From the IMG/VR virus record IMGVR_UViG_3300029319_000269, positions 1 to 31,922 of that record: a DNA stretch of 31,922 bases. One strand, written 5' to 3'. The notes below the pieces were generated by a model. The model was given only the letters and a program-made list of their open reading frames with translations. It was not told where the DNA came from and made no database searches. A program made the position numbers and the translations under genes. This DNA comes from a virus. Below, piece by piece: positions 3,187-12,280 of the stretch. The stretch's first letter is position 1. Every line of letters starts with the position of its first letter.

Positions 3187-3638
3187 TGTTTAAACTTTCA
3201 CAAAGAAGTAAGGATAAATTAACTGGTGTAAAGACAGAACTTGTAGCTGTTGTTACCAGTGCCATAGAACACACCACCGTCGATTTCGGAGTCATTCAAG
3301 GACTCAGAACTTTGGAAGAACAAAAGGAACTTGTTGCCAAAGGTGCAAGCCAAACAATGCGATCAAAACATTTGACTGGTGATGCCGTCGATCTCATGGC
3401 TTATGTTGGTTCGAGGGCATCATGGGAGCTAAATCTTTATGATAACATTGCAGATGCCATGAAGAGAGCAGCAGAGATTTGTGATGTAGGTATTCGTTGG
3501 GGTTGTGCATGGCACATACCAGATATCAGAGAGTATGATGGTTCAATGCAAGATGCAATGGATGATTATATTGATCTTAGAAAAGGACAAGGTCGTAGAC
3601 CTTTTATTGATGGTCCTCACTTTGAGCTTTCTCAATAA
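3186..3638 (+). CDS. Endolysin, M15-family peptidase (VanY/L-Ala-D-Glu peptidase type)
   Basis: A protein of 150 residues with the zinc-peptidase signature. SKHLTGDAVDL gives ligands H62 and D69, and DGPHFEL near the end gives the third ligand H145; QGLRT at about 38-42 is the typical arginine-bearing substrate motif. Family members cleave peptide stems of peptidoglycan. No signal peptide is seen, so export would need the upstream holin. The gene starts at the TAATG overlap with the preceding gene. Its last 35 bases overlap the 3' end of a convergent minus-strand gene, marking the border between late and early gene blocks. Confidence 0.9.
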   Translation: MFKLSQRSKDKLTGVKTELVAVVTSAIEHTTVDFGVIQGLRTLEEQKELVAKGASQTMRSKHLTGDAVDLMAYVGSRASWELNLYDNIADAMKRAAEICDVGIRWGCAWHIPDIREYDGSMQDAMDDYIDLRKGQGRRPFIDGPHFELSQ

Positions 3639-3885
3639 ACTCCATAGCTAGTGTAGCATAACCAGCAATATCTTTATATGAATCTTCATGATTAGGCTGC
3701 TGTTTTAATCTCATAGCTTTTGTAAGTATCATCATAATACATACATCTAAGTATGTGAAATTCATATCTTTATATTCTGACCAACACTTAGCTATCGCTC
3801 TAAGATTATCAGTTGGATTACCATAGACGTGTTGTCTTTTATCTAGTGTATCTCCAACTTCCCTTAGGAATTGAGCTCTTGTCAT
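3604..3885 (-). CDS. DUF6378-like protein
   Basis: A protein of 93 residues. The central pattern YGNPTDNLRAIAKCWSEY, followed by the segment VCIMMILTKAMRL and then HEDSYKDIAGYATLA, matches the DUF6378 family carried by many phages. The helical pattern and conserved D/H/E positions resemble MazG-like or dUTPase-like nucleotide-metabolism folds, but no reaction is established. It is the last gene of the minus-strand early block, joined to the upstream gene by TAATG, and its end overlaps the endolysin gene by 35 nt. Confidence 0.8.
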   Translation of the reverse strand: MTRAQFLREVGDTLDKRQHVYGNPTDNLRAIAKCWSEYKDMNFTYLDVCIMMILTKAMRLKQQPNHEDSYKDIAGYATLAMEFIEKAQSEDHQ

Positions 3886-4307
3886 TACTTGAGGCTTTCA
3901 ATTTTTTTTATAAGTTTTAATCCATCATCAGTAATTGATAATTGTTTATCAGACATAGAAACATACTTATGAACTCTTTCTTTTATTGTAAATAAACCAA
4001 AGAAAATTTTTCTTGCAGGTATTTTTTTTTCTGTATATTTCATATCAGTTATCTTAATTAAATTTAATTTAAGCAATACACTATTAGTTCTCATTAAAGT
4101 TGCAGTAGTACATCTTAAATATTTTCTCAAATCACTAAGAGTAGTATTTACTTTACTTACTTTATTTTGATTAGCTATCCATATAAAAGTATAATAAGCT
4201 GAAAGCTGAATATTACCACAACTTACATGGTAAGGTACTCTTTTATCATCTCTTTGAATCAAATCAAAGAAAGCATCTAAACCTTTTGTTAAATTTAATA
4301 ACTTCAT
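3885..4307 (-). CDS. Winged-helix DNA-binding protein, putative
   Basis: A protein of 140 residues with GAGAGGAA upstream of its ATG at 4307. Residues about 55-120 read as a winged helix-turn-helix: a helix with TLSDLRKYLRCTTATLMRT, a recognition helix leading to LLKLNLIKI, then a basic wing (KYTEKKIPARKIFFG). The C-terminal helix resembles the MarR or replication-initiator style (LSITDDGLKLIKKIESL). It is probably a regulator or a DNA-binding partner of the recombination genes just upstream. The gene lies downstream of a conserved-looking hairpin (4334-4376). The exact family is not recognised. Confidence 0.55.
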   Translation of the reverse strand: MKLLNLTKGLDAFFDLIQRDDKRVPYHVSCGNIQLSAYYTFIWIANQNKVSKVNTTLSDLRKYLRCTTATLMRTNSVLLKLNLIKITDMKYTEKKIPARKIFFGLFTIKERVHKYVSMSDKQLSITDDGLKLIKKIESLK

Positions 4308-4333
4308 TATTGTTCCTCTCTATTTAATTTGGT

Positions 4334-4376
4334 GTATGGCTATGGAGGAATTGGGATACACGAACCACAGCCATAC
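4334..4376 (-). promoter_or_regulatory. Intercistronic hairpin displaying an anti-Shine-Dalgarno-leader loop
   Basis: A 12-bp stem (arms 4334-4345 and 4365-4376) with a 19-nt loop, in the only real gap of this operon. As minus-strand RNA all 12 positions pair, one as G-U; as plus-strand RNA that position would be an A-C mismatch, so the minus-strand transcript is the likely functional form. No U-run follows, so it is not a standard terminator. The loop (minus sense) contains GUGUAUCCC, the exact complement of the GGGAUACAC leader in front of at least four early genes of this phage. Function is unknown; attenuation, processing or antisense regulation are options. Confidence 0.6.
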
Positions 4377-4380
4377 TTTA

Positions 4381-4797
4381 TTAGAATGGTATATCATCAT
4401 CTATTGGAGTTTTCTTTTCTTCCATATGTTGATATGCACCATCAAACTCAGTTCTCTTTTGCATCTTCTCAGATATACTTAGACTTAGATAATCATTACC
4501 ATTTTTATCTTTTCTTCTCCATGCAGATATTTTTAATGGAGTATCTTTATTAAATTTTTCTTCGATAGGTCCACTTTTATCTGGCTGATTATCATTTGTC
4601 TTTTCATTATTCCAAAGAGTACATAGCTTTGTATATACTTGCACTACCTTTGTACCATTTTTTGTTTCTTCATTTATACAAACAACTCTATGTTCAGTCC
4701 CATCAATATCAAGTTTGCCACTCAATATCAATCTATCATTTTGATTGTAAGGCTTAAAGCAAGCACCACTATTTTTATTATCGTATTGTTCTACCAT
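4381..4797 (-). CDS. Single-stranded-DNA-binding-like protein
   Basis: A protein of 138 residues ending in PIDDDIPF, the same acidic tip by which bacterial SSB recruits repair and replication proteins (E. coli SSB ends DDDIPF). The body is beta-rich (LILSGKLDIDGTEHRVV; TPLKISAWRRKDKNGNDYLSLSIS), consistent with a small beta-barrel, though I do not see a textbook SSB OB-fold signature. It overlaps the annealing-protein gene upstream by 7 nt. An annealing protein, an exonuclease and an SSB in one operon form a usual phage recombination set. The SSB role rests mainly on the tail and the neighbours. Confidence 0.65.
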   Translation of the reverse strand: MVEQYDNKNSGACFKPYNQNDRLILSGKLDIDGTEHRVVCINEETKNGTKVVQVYTKLCTLWNNEKTNDNQPDKSGPIEEKFNKDTPLKISAWRRKDKNGNDYLSLSISEKMQKRTEFDGAYQHMEEKKTPIDDDIPF

Positions 4798-5231
4798 GAT
4801 TTATTATCCTCATATTTGTTATCATCAAACTTTCCTAAGAACACATCAGCATTAAAACCTAGATGTGATATTGCTTTTGTAAGACCATCTGTAAGTGCCA
4901 TCTTTGGTGCATCATCATTTGTTTTTGCTTTGGGTGCATCAAGATTTATCATAGCTCTTGCTCCAGCTACAGGTCCAAATGATCCATATACTGTAGTGAC
5001 AGTAACCTTTGCAATCACCATCATGATATTTCCAAGTGTAGGATAATCATATTCTACAGTGTATGACCAATCACTACCAACTGGACCAAACCTTTCAGTA
5101 ACATTTCTAATCTGGTGCATAGCATCTATGGTATTAATAGTTTTGCCAAACTTACTTGGTGCCTTTCTTGTATGTGCTGGATTAGTTTTTTCAACTGCAG
5201 TCCATAAGTTTAAATTATTTTTATTCGACAT
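4791..5231 (-). CDS. Single-strand annealing protein, Sak3/DUF1071-like (Erf superfamily)
   Basis: A protein of 146 residues. The start is the ATG at 5231, which follows the leader AAGGGATACACA; an earlier in-frame ATG at 5255 lies inside the nuclease gene and lacks that leader. The pattern is typical of Sak3-like annealing proteins: NLW near the start, INTIDAMHQIRNVTERFGP (about 32-50), a beta-rich core (VIAKVTV), then DDAPKMALTDGLTKAISHLG (106-125) and FNADVFLGKFDDNKY (126-140). It would anneal complementary single strands produced by the upstream nuclease, in phage recombination or replication. It overlaps the nuclease gene by 11 nt. Confidence 0.8.
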   Translation of the reverse strand: MSNKNNLNLWTAVEKTNPAHTRKAPSKFGKTINTIDAMHQIRNVTERFGPVGSDWSYTVEYDYPTLGNIMMVIAKVTVTTVYGSFGPVAGARAMINLDAPKAKTNDDAPKMALTDGLTKAISHLGFNADVFLGKFDDNKYEDNKSW

Positions 5232-5766
5232 TGTGTATCCCTTCTTTTGGCTCAATATTATTGATTACGTGTGACCAAAACTTTGGTAGTATATTCTTGA
5301 GCCTATCAATATACTCTCCATCTTTTTCTATGACCCCACATCTCCATGAATTTCCGTTACCAAAAAAGTTTGGGAAATAACATAAGTTAGTATTCGATAG
5401 CCACAAATAAAACTGTATCTGTGGTGTGTATCTATCGATCTGTATATTTAATTTATTAAATGAGCTTGTATGTTTTGCTTCAACAATAGCTTGCATACCT
5501 ACTATTGATGCATCTATTGTACCTTTCAATGGTACACCATTCCAATTCATAGTATATTCTTTTTGATAGTTCTCAAGTTCTACATCATACTCTTGTTGAA
5601 ACACAAAAAGATTATATGGTTCTGTAAGAATACCTATCTGTACCGGGTGATTAAATGATAAATCATCTGGTTCTTTTTGACCAGTCTTGACTAGCCATAG
5701 ATCATGCCAATCTCCAGACATAATCTTCGCACAATCTGATCCACCAATAAAGCCTTTACGATTCAT
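5221..5766 (-). CDS. YqaJ-type exonuclease (PD-(D/E)XK)
   Basis: A protein of 181 residues. ATG 5766 follows directly on the leader AAAGGGATACAC, so I prefer it to the in-frame ATG at 5781. Landmarks of the YqaJ/lambda-exonuclease fold are visible: GGSD at 8-11, LWLVKTGQK near 23-31, VQIGILTEP with E49, the metal-binding D85 in GTIDA, E96-x-K98 in EAKHT, and Q116-I-Q118 (YTPQIQFYL). The enzyme should resect dsDNA 5' to 3' to feed the annealing protein. It is the first gene of the recombination operon, with a well-formed promoter about 25 nt upstream. Confidence 0.85.
   Translation of the reverse strand: MNRKGFIGGSDCAKIMSGDWHDLWLVKTGQKEPDDLSFNHPVQIGILTEPYNLFVFQQEYDVELENYQKEYTMNWNGVPLKGTIDASIVGMQAIVEAKHTSSFNKLNIQIDRYTPQIQFYLWLSNTNLCYFPNFFGNGNSWRCGVIEKDGEYIDRLKNILPKFWSHVINNIEPKEGIHNVE
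5233..5241 (-). promoter_or_regulatory. GGGATACAC leader/RBS of the annealing-protein gene
   Basis: Minus-strand AAGGGATACACA ends 1 nt before ATG 5231. The AAGGG core serves as Shine-Dalgarno; the ATACAC extension recurs at other early genes and fixes the start here. Confidence 0.65.
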
Positions 5767-5775
5767 GTGTATCCC
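5767..5775 (-). promoter_or_regulatory. GGGATACAC leader/RBS of the YqaJ nuclease gene
   Basis: Minus-strand GAAAGGGATACAC is immediately followed by ATG 5766. The motif is the same as at 5233-5241, 8336-8344 and 10147-10155. Confidence 0.65.
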
Positions 5776-5789
5776 TTTCAATAAAAAAA

Positions 5790-5818
5790 ATTATATTACT
5801 TGACTATAAAAATGTAAA
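5790..5818 (-). promoter_or_regulatory. Sigma70-like promoter of the recombination operon
   Basis: Minus strand: TTTACA (5813-5818), 17-nt spacer, TATAAT (5790-5795), a 10-of-12 match to consensus with ideal spacing. Transcription would begin near 5783 and reach the nuclease ATG after a leader of about 17 nt. It would serve the operon nuclease, annealing protein, SSB-like, winged-helix, DUF6378. Confidence 0.7.
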
Positions 5819-5828
5819 GCAATATTAT
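5800..5828 (+). promoter_or_regulatory. Opposing sigma70-like promoter, candidate for a short RNA
   Basis: Plus strand: TTGACT (5800-5805), 17-nt spacer, TATTAT (5823-5828). It overlaps the minus-strand promoter base for base. Transcription from about 5835 would meet the terminator at 5865-5888, giving an RNA of about 55 nt that is antisense to the last bases of the 58-aa gene. The elements are close to consensus but lie in AT-rich DNA, so chance is possible. Confidence 0.4.
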
Positions 5829-5864
5829 TTTTTTATAACATAATCCATCTTTATAACTCCCTTG

Positions 5865-5888
5865 GGGCAGCTAACTGCTGCCCTTTTT
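5865..5888 (+). terminator. Rho-independent terminator, plus direction
   Basis: Stem GGGCAGC (5865-5871), loop TAACT, stem GCTGCCC (5877-5883), followed by TTTTTCTTTT on the plus strand. The T-run is only on this side, so it acts on rightward RNA although the neighbouring genes run leftward. The stop codon of the leftward 58-aa gene lies at the end of the left arm and start of the loop. Confidence 0.65.
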
Positions 5889-6047
5889 CTTTTCTTCTTC
5901 CCAATCAATATGAAATGATTCAACAACTTCATCTGGTCTGGTAAAATCTTGTGGCACATATGGTAATGTGATCTCCACTTCTTTCGGTTTCTTTAACCAT
6001 CTATCATGAAATACTTTTATTTTATGGCTGTACTTTTTTATATCCAT
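5871..6047 (-). CDS. Small acidic-tailed protein, 58 aa
   Basis: ATG 6047 to TAG at 5871-5873, overlapping the upstream gene by 26 nt, with GAGGACAG upstream as a possible ribosome binding site. The product begins MDIKKYSHKIKVFHDRW, has a central segment EITLPYVPQDFTRPDEV and ends with an acidic then basic tail (DWEEEKKKGSS). No membrane segment or known motif is visible. Composition and operon position support a real gene. It is the last gene before the promoter and terminator region of the recombination operon. Function is unknown. Confidence 0.6.
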   Translation of the reverse strand: MDIKKYSHKIKVFHDRWLKKPKEVEITLPYVPQDFTRPDEVVESFHIDWEEEKKKGSS

Positions 6048-6222
6048 AATATTCTGTCCTCGGTCTTTGCAATGGTAGTTTCTCTAAATAAAATTCTTCA
6101 TACTTATATGTCTTGTGACACTTATATCCCTCGCCATAGATTTTATCTGACCACATCTGGCAAGCTTCTTCAGTATCAAAATGAACAACAGTAAGTAAAC
6201 TATATAATATTATTTTATTCAT
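6022..6222 (-). CDS. Small protein with two cysteines, 66 aa
   Basis: A protein of 66 residues starting MNKIILYSLLTVVHFDTEEA. The first 14 residues are hydrophobic after a lysine, so a weak signal or membrane segment is possible, though they could equally be a beta strand. C21 and C35 flank QMWSDKIYGEGYK, and the C-terminus is rich in Y, K, R and P. It overlaps the loader gene upstream by 8 nt. The compact alpha/beta look and W-x-D-K-I-Y-G pattern suggest a conserved small phage protein, but I cannot name a family. Confidence 0.6.
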   Translation of the reverse strand: MNKIILYSLLTVVHFDTEEACQMWSDKIYGEGYKCHKTYKYEEFYLEKLPLQRPRTEYYGYKKVQP

Positions 6223-11312: not shown

Positions 11313-11711
11313 ATGCAACTCATGAACACACTCAAGAACCTCGCAGATCAGTCTACGATCACCGCAAAACAACGAAAGCTGGTGGATACACTCGTAGCAA
11401 CTGGATGCAGCATCAAGAAAGCTAGTGAAGTAGCTGGATATGCAAAGGGAGAAAGTGGTAGAGTCAGTGCTAGCAAGGCTCTCAAGAATCCAAACGTGCA
11501 AGCTTACTTGATGTTGCAGGTATCGGAAAGTATAGGACTTAACGCTACGAAAGCTAGTCATAGGTTACTCCAGCTTTCACAAGATGCTAAGAGTGAGTAC
11601 GTACAGCTAGAAGCAAGCAAGGATATACTGGATCGAGCAGGGTTCAAAGCTCCTGATAAACACCAGCATCTTGTTGCTGGGGATATCAAAGTAAACATAT
11701 CTCTTGATTGA
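11313..11711 (+). CDS. terS: Terminase small subunit
   Basis: A protein of 132 residues. It shows an N-terminal DNA-binding helix-turn-helix of the small-terminase kind (TAKQRKLVDTLVATGCSIKK, then ASEVAGYAKGESGRVSASKA and LKNPNVQAYL). A helical oligomerisation region (about 75-115) and a short tail with DIKVNISLD follow. It should recognise the packaging site and regulate the large subunit. ATG 11313 and ATG 11322 are both possible; neither has a good Shine-Dalgarno, so translation may depend on the structured RNA directly upstream. Codon use and GC look higher than in the virion genes. About 1.4 kb with five small genes separates it from the large subunit. Confidence 0.75.
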   Translation: MQLMNTLKNLADQSTITAKQRKLVDTLVATGCSIKKASEVAGYAKGESGRVSASKALKNPNVQAYLMLQVSESIGLNATKASHRLLQLSQDAKSEYVQLEASKDILDRAGFKAPDKHQHLVAGDIKVNISLD

Positions 11712-11719
11712 AACATTGT

Positions 11720-11802
11720 TGCTCGGCTTCGCCCCACTTCGTTCCTCCCTCAGCAGCCGAGCATAGACTCGATTTGCTTCGCAAATGCCACCCCAACGAG
11801 TC
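11720..11802. other. GC-rich double hairpin after the small terminase gene
   Basis: The first stem is 11720-11728/11755-11763 (9 bp, TGCTCGGCT) with a 26-nt C/T-rich loop. The second is 11766-11771/11797-11802 (GACTCG/CGAGTC) enclosing a perfect ATTTGC-TTC-GCAAAT hairpin (11772-11786). No U-run follows, so they are not standard terminators. They could belong to a packaging site, to a 3' part of the structured RNA, or to mRNA processing. They open a 278-bp intergenic stretch (11712-11989). Confidence 0.6.
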
Positions 11803-11872
11803 ATAAGGAACTCGCAAGCTCGTACTATATTTATTGGGTTATCTGTCTACATATTAATTTAATCTTACTGTA

Positions 11873-11895
11873 CCCCCTCTGGGGGGCTAGGGGGG
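11873..11895. other. C5 / G6 / G6 element
   Basis: CCCCC-TCT-GGGGGG-CTA-GGGGGG in otherwise AT-rich DNA. The C5 can pair with the first G6 as a 5-bp hairpin, and the two G6 runs leave a second free G-tract. It lies between the small terminase gene and the next gene, a common place for cos or pac sites. That role is inference. Confidence 0.5.
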
Positions 11896-11989
11896 AAAAT
11901 AGCGACTCTGTTACGGTAAGTAATCCTTCACAAACATTTTTAGCTTGAAAAGCTCTAAAAAATATTTAATGGTTAGTTAGGAGGTCGCT

Positions 11990-12280
11990 ATGGCAAAAAC
12001 ACCAGCTTGGCAAAGAAAAGAGGGTAAGAACCCCAAAGGTGGTTTGAATGCTAAAGGCAGAGCAAGCTACAAGAAGGGTACTCTCAAGCCACCAGTGAAG
12101 AGTGGTGATAATCCTCGTCGTGCATCTTTCTTAGCAAGGATGGGTAATATGCGTGGTCCAGAAAGAGATTCTAAGGGAAAGCCTACCAGACTTCTTCTTA
12201 GTTTGAGAGCTTGGGGTGCAAGTTCGAAGGCAGATGCTAGAGCCAAAGCAAGAGCAATCAGTAAAAGGAATAAGGCGTGA
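11990..12280 (+). CDS. DUF6321-like basic protein
   Basis: A protein of 96 residues, ATG 11990 with AGGAGG five bases upstream. The N-terminus AKTPAWQRKEGKNPKGGLNA, followed by KGRASYKKGTLKPPV, then PRRASFLARMGNMRGP and a C-terminal LRAWGASSKADARAK, matches the DUF6321 pattern of many phage packaging regions. It is strongly basic. DNA binding during packaging or in the virion is plausible, but no function has been established that I know of. Confidence 0.85.
   Translation: MAKTPAWQRKEGKNPKGGLNAKGRASYKKGTLKPPVKSGDNPRRASFLARMGNMRGPERDSKGKPTRLLLSLRAWGASSKADARAKARAISKRNKA

Follow-up and report, generated by a model that had tools for sequence, protein, structure and literature searches.

The window, that is, the whole stretch of DNA analysed here, is the complete record IMGVR_UViG_3300029319_000269 with a length of 31,922 bases. 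The minus strand carries its early genes, between about 10,143 and 3,604, and the plus strand its late genes. The early block contains a recombination cassette consisting of yqaJ, a single-strand annealing protein gene and an SSB-like gene, and a hairpin lies between the SSB-like gene and the next gene. The features are as follows.

10178 to 10205, minus strand: promoter-like site (11/12) before the first early gene, near-consensus, overlapping the perfect inverted repeat ACACTATG/CATAGTGT
10147 to 10155, minus strand: GGGATACAC leader of the 78-aa first early gene (ATG 10143)
8336 to 8344, minus strand: GGGATACAC leader of the 184-aa gene (ATG 8332)
6825 to 6833, minus strand: imperfect fifth leader, GGGATACTC, of the gene starting at 6820
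5790 to 5818, minus strand: promoter-like site (11/12) ahead of the yqaJ leader (1 of 100 shuffles as good)
5767 to 5775, minus strand: GGGATACAC leader of yqaJ (ATG 5766), the proposed main target
5221 to 5766, minus strand: yqaJ, YqaJ-family exonuclease gene (PF09588, E 2e-10 over 5221-5763; ATG 5766)
5233 to 5241, minus strand: GGGATACAC leader of the annealing-protein gene (ATG 5231)
4791 to 5231, minus strand: single-strand annealing protein gene (ATG 5231), 45% to a Pelagibacter phage HTVC035P gene annotated putative single strand-annealing protein
4381 to 4797, minus strand: SSB-like gene (PHROG 18154, E 2e-7, and 7364, E 7e-5, single strand DNA binding protein)
4334 to 4376, minus strand: hairpin between the SSB gene and the next gene (arms 4365-4376 and 4334-4345, 19-nt loop 4346-4364)
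4353 to 4361, minus strand: anti-leader segment of the loop, GUGUAUCCC in early-mRNA sense
3885 to 4307, minus strand: 140-aa gene between hairpin and p93, without a family match
3604 to 3885, minus strand: p93, the conserved next gene, used as a query for finding relatives

The annealing protein also matches a hypothetical gene of EXVC029P at 44%. The PHROG families that it matches are labelled exonuclease, which looks like a label error, and a search of solved structures with this protein returned a single match with an E value of 0.74. The 140-aa gene was found only in the window among the loci compared around the annealing-protein and terminase relatives. A helix-turn-helix gene at 6585-7256 carries an in-frame tandem repeat (VVHDMHH) at 6930-6985. 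The divergent early and late blocks are separated by a non-coding region, 10840-11290, with many stem-loops; within it, at about 11187 on the plus strand, AGTATGGCTGTG is held in common with the 5′ arm of the hairpin. A tRNA search of the window gave no tRNA.

Promoter-like sites of all strengths show no excess in the window (40 against 38.7 expected from shuffles). Directly before yqaJ, sites of at least 10/12 were found in 9 of the 64 representative phages (see below), where 1.5 were expected. Since a promoter-like site precedes yqaJ in the window and in these nine representatives, the cassette may be a transcription unit of its own with the hairpin in its 3′ flank. The inverted repeat ACACTATG/CATAGTGT overlapped by the site at 10178-10205 is a likely operator. 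In three more distant phages (L044, L051 and L085) an inverted repeat like ACTGCAT...ATGCAGT lies upstream of the yqaJ leader and is perhaps an operator as well.

The minus-strand sequence of the hairpin is GUAUGGCUGUGG-UUCGUGUAUCCCAAUUCCU-CCAUAGCCAUAC. The first-pass annotation of this DNA had described a 12-bp stem with a G-U pair that forms only in the minus sense, and folding of both strands bore this out. In minus-strand RNA (4376-4334) the stem has 12 bp including one G·U, and a 49-nt segment folds at −19.4 kcal/mol (z −6.1, with 0 of 200 shuffles as good), while the plus strand folds at −15.1 kcal/mol (z −3.2) with an A-C mismatch at the position of the G·U. The hairpin was absent from the list produced by an inverted-repeat search at default settings. 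A U-tract does not follow it and no terminator-like site was found there, so that the hairpin does not have the marks of an intrinsic terminator. Rfam gave four matches over 3600-12000 of the window, all below the gathering score, and no match at the gathering score in ten relatives.

The same annotation had claimed that nine nucleotides of the loop are complementary to the leaders of the YqaJ nuclease, annealing, 184-aa and first early genes, and exact matches were indeed found. The loop segment GUGUAUCCC is the exact complement of GGGAUACAC, which stands ahead of these four early genes. As a nine-mer, GGGATACAC occurs five times in the window against 0.06 expected, once on the plus strand within the loop (4353-4361) and four times on the minus strand. 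When the 73-nt gap after the SSB gene was shuffled, GTGTATCCC arose in 21 of 200,000 trials. Ranking 46 start regions (20 early, 26 late) by predicted duplex energy with the loop placed these four genes and the early gene starting at 6820 first, at −18.4 to −16.8 kcal/mol, the next best being −14.8 kcal/mol. The plus strand of the loop (4346-4364 in the window; 4465-4513 in L086, type TGGTGGAATTGGGATACACAA) has a stretch of at least 15 nt identical to the D-arm of certain tRNA-Leu genes from phages and bacteria. This likeness is probably a coincidence, as it was seen in the window's own clade and is absent from the other loops read, and an origin of the function in a tRNA was rejected because the quite different loops of relatives still match their leaders.

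The nearest relatives were obtained by scanning with the annealing protein, which gave nine loci. In all of them the hairpin is present and its 9-nt loop core is unchanged; the GGGATACAC leaders are also found as far as the contigs extend. The surroundings vary: L088 has a p71-like gene between SSB and the hairpin, a spacing also seen in L086, L087 and L091, and L093 carries extra non-coding sequence there. As the hairpin stays while its neighbourhood changes, it can be regarded as a fixed mark of the boundary between SSB and p93. One of the stem pairs varies across phages as G-C, G·U or A-U.

A scan with p93 returned 33 loci, and an alignment-based search gave the same 33. A hairpin of at least eight pairs within 350 nt upstream of p93 was present in 27 of 28 sequences, the window included, a count that carries no chance rate; the one exception is the window itself, in which the 140-aa gene pushes the hairpin beyond 350 nt. 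At this location the relatives carry either a single hairpin or two, and wherever loops and leaders depart from those of the window, the loop matches the YqaJ exonuclease leader of that same phage. In L155, the loop TTCACCCTTT / UUCACCCUUU matches the annealing leader and ACCCTTTC / ACCCUUUC the yqaJ leader. The 15-nt match of the L162 loop, CCTCTCTTTCATAAT / CCUCUCUUUCAUAAU, is likewise with the yqaJ leader, while that of L175, TCTCTCCATTT / UCUCUCCAUUU, extends over 11 nt and spans the start codon. Matches to the own leader were also found in L158 (ACCCUUUC), L164 (14 nt), L178 (10 nt) and L168 (AUCUCUCUCU). A second hairpin was noted by eye in L157 (7942-7990), with the loop side TTTCCTTTCAT matching the leader of that phage's SSB gene over 11 nt.

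The leaders of the 78-aa and 184-aa genes match the loop within the window's own clade and are irregular elsewhere; in L169, for instance, the 184-aa leader matches the second hairpin over 9 nt. The locus L168 is a natural recombinant. Its left early half is window-like, with GGGATACAC leaders before the 78-aa and 184-aa genes, and its right half, from yqaJ to p93, is of another hairpin type, with no GTGTATCCC in the locus. In this locus the hairpin goes with yqaJ and not with the other early genes.

The element is missing in some groups, such as the 12-locus cluster of L204. The isolate nearest by terminase is Pelagibacter phage EXVC031P Hodr (65%), in which no element was seen by eye after the gene taken for SSB (hypothetical in the record), and the isolates returned by the YqaJ searches are at most 38% identical. 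Distant terminase relatives have mostly plain GGAG-type leaders; these were considered as counter-evidence, which was dropped once the p93 and YqaJ scans had added phages.

The correspondence between loop and leader was assessed by swapping partners between phages. A YqaJ-alignment scan returned 80 loci of 43-97% identity. In total 117 loci, several per contig in some cases, entered the first set, of which 96 offered both a yqaJ start and an SSB stop that could be used and the other 21 were discarded; removal of near-duplicates left 36 representatives. The statistic was the length of the longest uninterrupted exact match by complementarity that the yqaJ start region (−22 to +10) finds in the 160 nt past the SSB stop. 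It was chosen after the post-SSB sequences of this set had been read, and for this reason only the two later sets (8 and 21 representatives) count as held out.

In the first set, own pairs averaged 8.31 nt and swapped pairs 6.36 nt (sd 0.22), and none of 20,000 permutations reached the own value; at least 9 nt were found in 15 of 36 representatives against 3.3 expected. Three controls stayed flat: 6.44 vs 6.44 with the antisense strand, 5.64 vs 5.67 with the final 160 nt of ssb and 5.50 vs 5.60 with the following 160 nt. The annealing leader was tracked in this set (7.29 vs 6.11, n = 35, 0/20,000) and the SSB leader weakly (6.33 vs 5.89, 73/20,000), while 338 upstream open-frame leaders gave 6.34 vs 5.95, with 32 reaching at least 9 nt. 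For the p93 clade alone (n = 11) the values were 10.18 vs 7.16 for yqaJ (0/20,000) and 7.27 vs 6.46 for annealing (890/20,000). With this clade and L185 removed, yqaJ still stood at 7.46 vs 6.34 (n = 24, 0/20,000; antisense control 689/20,000) and annealing at 7.22 vs 6.23 (n = 23, 3/20,000).

The first held-out set was obtained with L240 as query, which returned 80 loci, 75 of them new; 62 were usable, 13 were dropped, 38 were near-duplicates and 8 representatives resulted, mostly of one leader type. It gave 7.12 vs 6.55 (893/20,000), with the antisense control at 959/20,000. After this set had proved too uniform, a second one was made with other YqaJ proteins as queries and with the same windows and statistic. 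The alignment led by L251 returned 80 loci, of which 76 were new, 67 usable and 9 dropped; 11 were near-duplicates and 21 representatives were obtained. Here the yqaJ leader gave 9.38 vs 7.61 (0/20,000), with at least 9 nt in 17 of 21 against 5.2 expected, and the controls remained at background for the antisense strand (6.10 vs 6.06, 9,436/20,000) and for the end of ssb (5.33 vs 5.52). For the annealing leader there was a trend short of significance (7.29 vs 6.89, 1,516/20,000). Thus, of the targets named at the outset, the yqaJ leader follows the loop across phages, the annealing leader does so in the first set and as a trend only in the larger held-out set, and the 78-aa and 184-aa leaders are irregular outside the clade of the window.

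Considering all 65 representatives, complementarity of at least 8 nt was found in 44 and of at least 9 nt in 34, while 21 had less than 8 nt; the counted matches include some unlike the element, in L185, L321, L223 and L086, where the hairpin lies beyond 160 nt. Matches of this kind could in principle arise from ordinary Shine-Dalgarno chemistry or chance, as purine-rich leaders and pyrimidine-rich loops would match by composition. The anti-Shine-Dalgarno core does form part of most matches, swapped pairs still reach 6.4 to 7.6 nt, and the small set of eight representatives separates poorly from its permutations. Nevertheless, swapping retains the core, and yet own pairs exceed all permutations in the sets of 36 and 21 representatives. 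Bases outside the core covary as well. A GGAGAA leader is present in 39 representatives, of which 30, with TTCTCC after SSB, could be scored for the bases outside that core. Their complementarity extends past the core by 2.83 nt in own pairs and 1.46 nt in swapped ones (0/50,000); at base +2 past the core 26 of 30 are complementary where 10.5 would be expected, and at the third base 21 of 30 where the expectation is 13.1. We regard an explanation by composition or chance as extremely improbable. Across related phages, then, loop and leaders change together, as the swaps and the base covariation both indicate, and the outcome that would have spoken against antisense pairing, a loop whose conservation bears no relation to the leaders, did not appear. 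The pairing of loop and leader is well supported by these comparisons.

The occurrence of the same nine-mer at four gene starts and at the hairpin would also be expected if a phage protein were to bind hairpin and leaders, as RNA or DNA, with the common nine bases as its site. Such a protein had been named from the beginning as an explanation that could displace the pairing. Against it, the copy after SSB is complementary, same-orientation matches are at background in the first set and in the second held-out set (the antisense-strand controls above), and the motif varies between phages while the complementarity stays. The stem covaries too, and we consider the protein site very unlikely. Covariation of the stem was evaluated on ten similar hairpins from nine sequences, giving eight distinct rows, with homology assumed. 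It was found that 97.7% of the cells are paired and that both sides have changed in 5 of 11 pairs (1 of 500 shuffles); the covariation score was reached by none of 500 shuffles, and further pair types showed no excess over shuffles (421/500). An enclosing stem of at least six Watson-Crick pairs is present in only 28 of the 44 representatives with at least 8 nt of complementarity. Internal wobble pairs are G·U in mRNA sense 12 times and A-C once. The base covariation, the stem changes and these wobbles point to early-strand RNA as the active form.

A T-run of at least five within 160 nt after a match of at least 8 nt is found in 14 of 64 representatives. In several relatives the element is directly followed by terminator-like hairpins with T-runs, and these hairpins would accommodate a reversed direction of action, in which the short leader, or an RNA made from it, acts on the hairpin and so controls a terminator or read-through into the genes after SSB. 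The hairpin of the window lacks a terminator-like site, and the pairing region is centred on the ribosome site of the leader; a reversed direction is accordingly rated as unlikely. Antisense control of the exonuclease start is the best reading, because a complement of the leader is held in a loop behind the last gene, is kept while both partners drift and is not found in the same orientation.

We consider it probable that the hairpin is a 3′-flank antisense element of the exonuclease-annealing-SSB operon which pairs with the exonuclease start region and represses its translation. The stem would present a single-stranded loop, and the loop would pair with the Shine-Dalgarno region and nearby bases of the yqaJ leader, which lies about 1.4 kb upstream of the hairpin on the same predicted transcript. 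In the window phage, the annealing gene and two or more further early genes have leaders with which the loop may pair as well. Once paired, the ribosome site would be masked and translation would fall, so that a negative feedback would arise: the more operon transcripts reach their end, the less of the exonuclease and the annealing protein each message would yield. A surplus of nuclease could be harmful when annealing protein and SSB are lacking, and a signal that arises only after transcription of SSB would balance the three proteins. We infer that such pairing occurs in the cell and is repressive, and that the element works in trans as a processed 3′ fragment, in cis, or in both ways.

Two known routes are available for such an element, a processed 3′-UTR RNA acting on its own operon, as for OppZ and CarZ, or a contact between two parts of one message that blocks ribosomes and leads to cleavage by RNase III, as for icaR. 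If the second operated alone, the 3′ hairpin would fold back onto the leader of the same molecule, block ribosomes and create a duplex for RNase III, with no free small RNA. Leader and hairpin do belong to a single predicted transcript that has a promoter-like site directly ahead of yqaJ, icaR offers a precedent in the available text of PMC3868564, and the hairpin of the window, having no U-tract, bears nothing that marks a released RNA. On the other hand, one loop matches several leaders of one message, which is better suited to a diffusible RNA; the T-runs in the 14 representatives, of which the window is without an example, are as in terminated 3′-UTR RNAs and would suit a released RNA; and OppZ, as far as the accessible part of PMC7398697 goes, was shown to need processing and not long-range folding. 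Action in cis only appears to us possible, though doubtful.

As loop and leader drift together as private pairs, each phage might silence its own exonuclease and not those of others. Extending this, we suggest tentatively that a widespread class of phage 3′-UTR antisense hairpins could time homologous recombination in marine phages. Completion of the operon would shut the exonuclease off, and private lock-and-key pairs would silence the exonuclease of the phage and its near kin and not that of other co-infecting phages, so that the loops may set which phages interfere or recombine. If the antisense reading holds, phage recombination genes would be under the control of an RNA switch that their own message encodes, and the element would be recognisable from sequence alone in many uncultured phages. 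Many natural loop-leader pairs would then be at hand for testing pairing rules, action in cis and trans, and cross-talk of co-infecting phages.

Among known systems, phage small RNAs such as PreS, OOP, sar and VpdS are phage-made and base-pair with mRNA, according to the available portion of the review PMC12197685. As described there, PreS acts on the host dnaN, OOP is antisense to cII and sar to ant, unlike the present element; the strings "autoregulat" and "recombination" do not occur in the main text of that review as available. An antisense element in the 3′ UTR of SSB in phages was not found among the best-ranked literature matches, which took in few subscription papers and no preprints. 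In Staphylococcus aureus, a short 3′-UTR motif of icaR pairs with the Shine-Dalgarno region of its own mRNA and hinders the loading of ribosomes, as stated in the accessible text of PMC3868564. In the window phage, a motif complementary to the Shine-Dalgarno region of the same predicted mRNA is likewise present in the putative 3′ UTR. The icaR case differs in concerning one cellular gene for which RNase III cleavage was shown, and a family varying on both sides was not found in the part of that paper available.

The autoregulatory small RNAs OppZ and CarZ of Vibrio cholerae are derived from 3′ UTRs, as given in the available part of PMC7398697. They resemble the phage case as we predict it: an RNA from the 3′ UTR of an operon inhibits translation by pairing with one of that operon's own translation initiation regions. 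The position in the 3′ flank of the operon that would be regulated is found in the window and in the relatives, and complementarity to a translation initiation region of that operon is borne out by the swaps and the duplex ranking. A Rho-independent terminator at the 3′ end is absent from the window, the T-runs of at least five being confined to the 14 of 64 representatives mentioned. OppZ and CarZ belong to cellular operons, and for OppZ both RNase E processing and Hfq binding were shown, so far as that text extends; the phage element, on the other hand, belongs to a recombination operon, its pairing bases lie in a hairpin loop in many members, and several leaders match it. On our best reading, what is new here relative to OppZ, CarZ and icaR is the phage setting and the presentation of the pairing bases in a loop.
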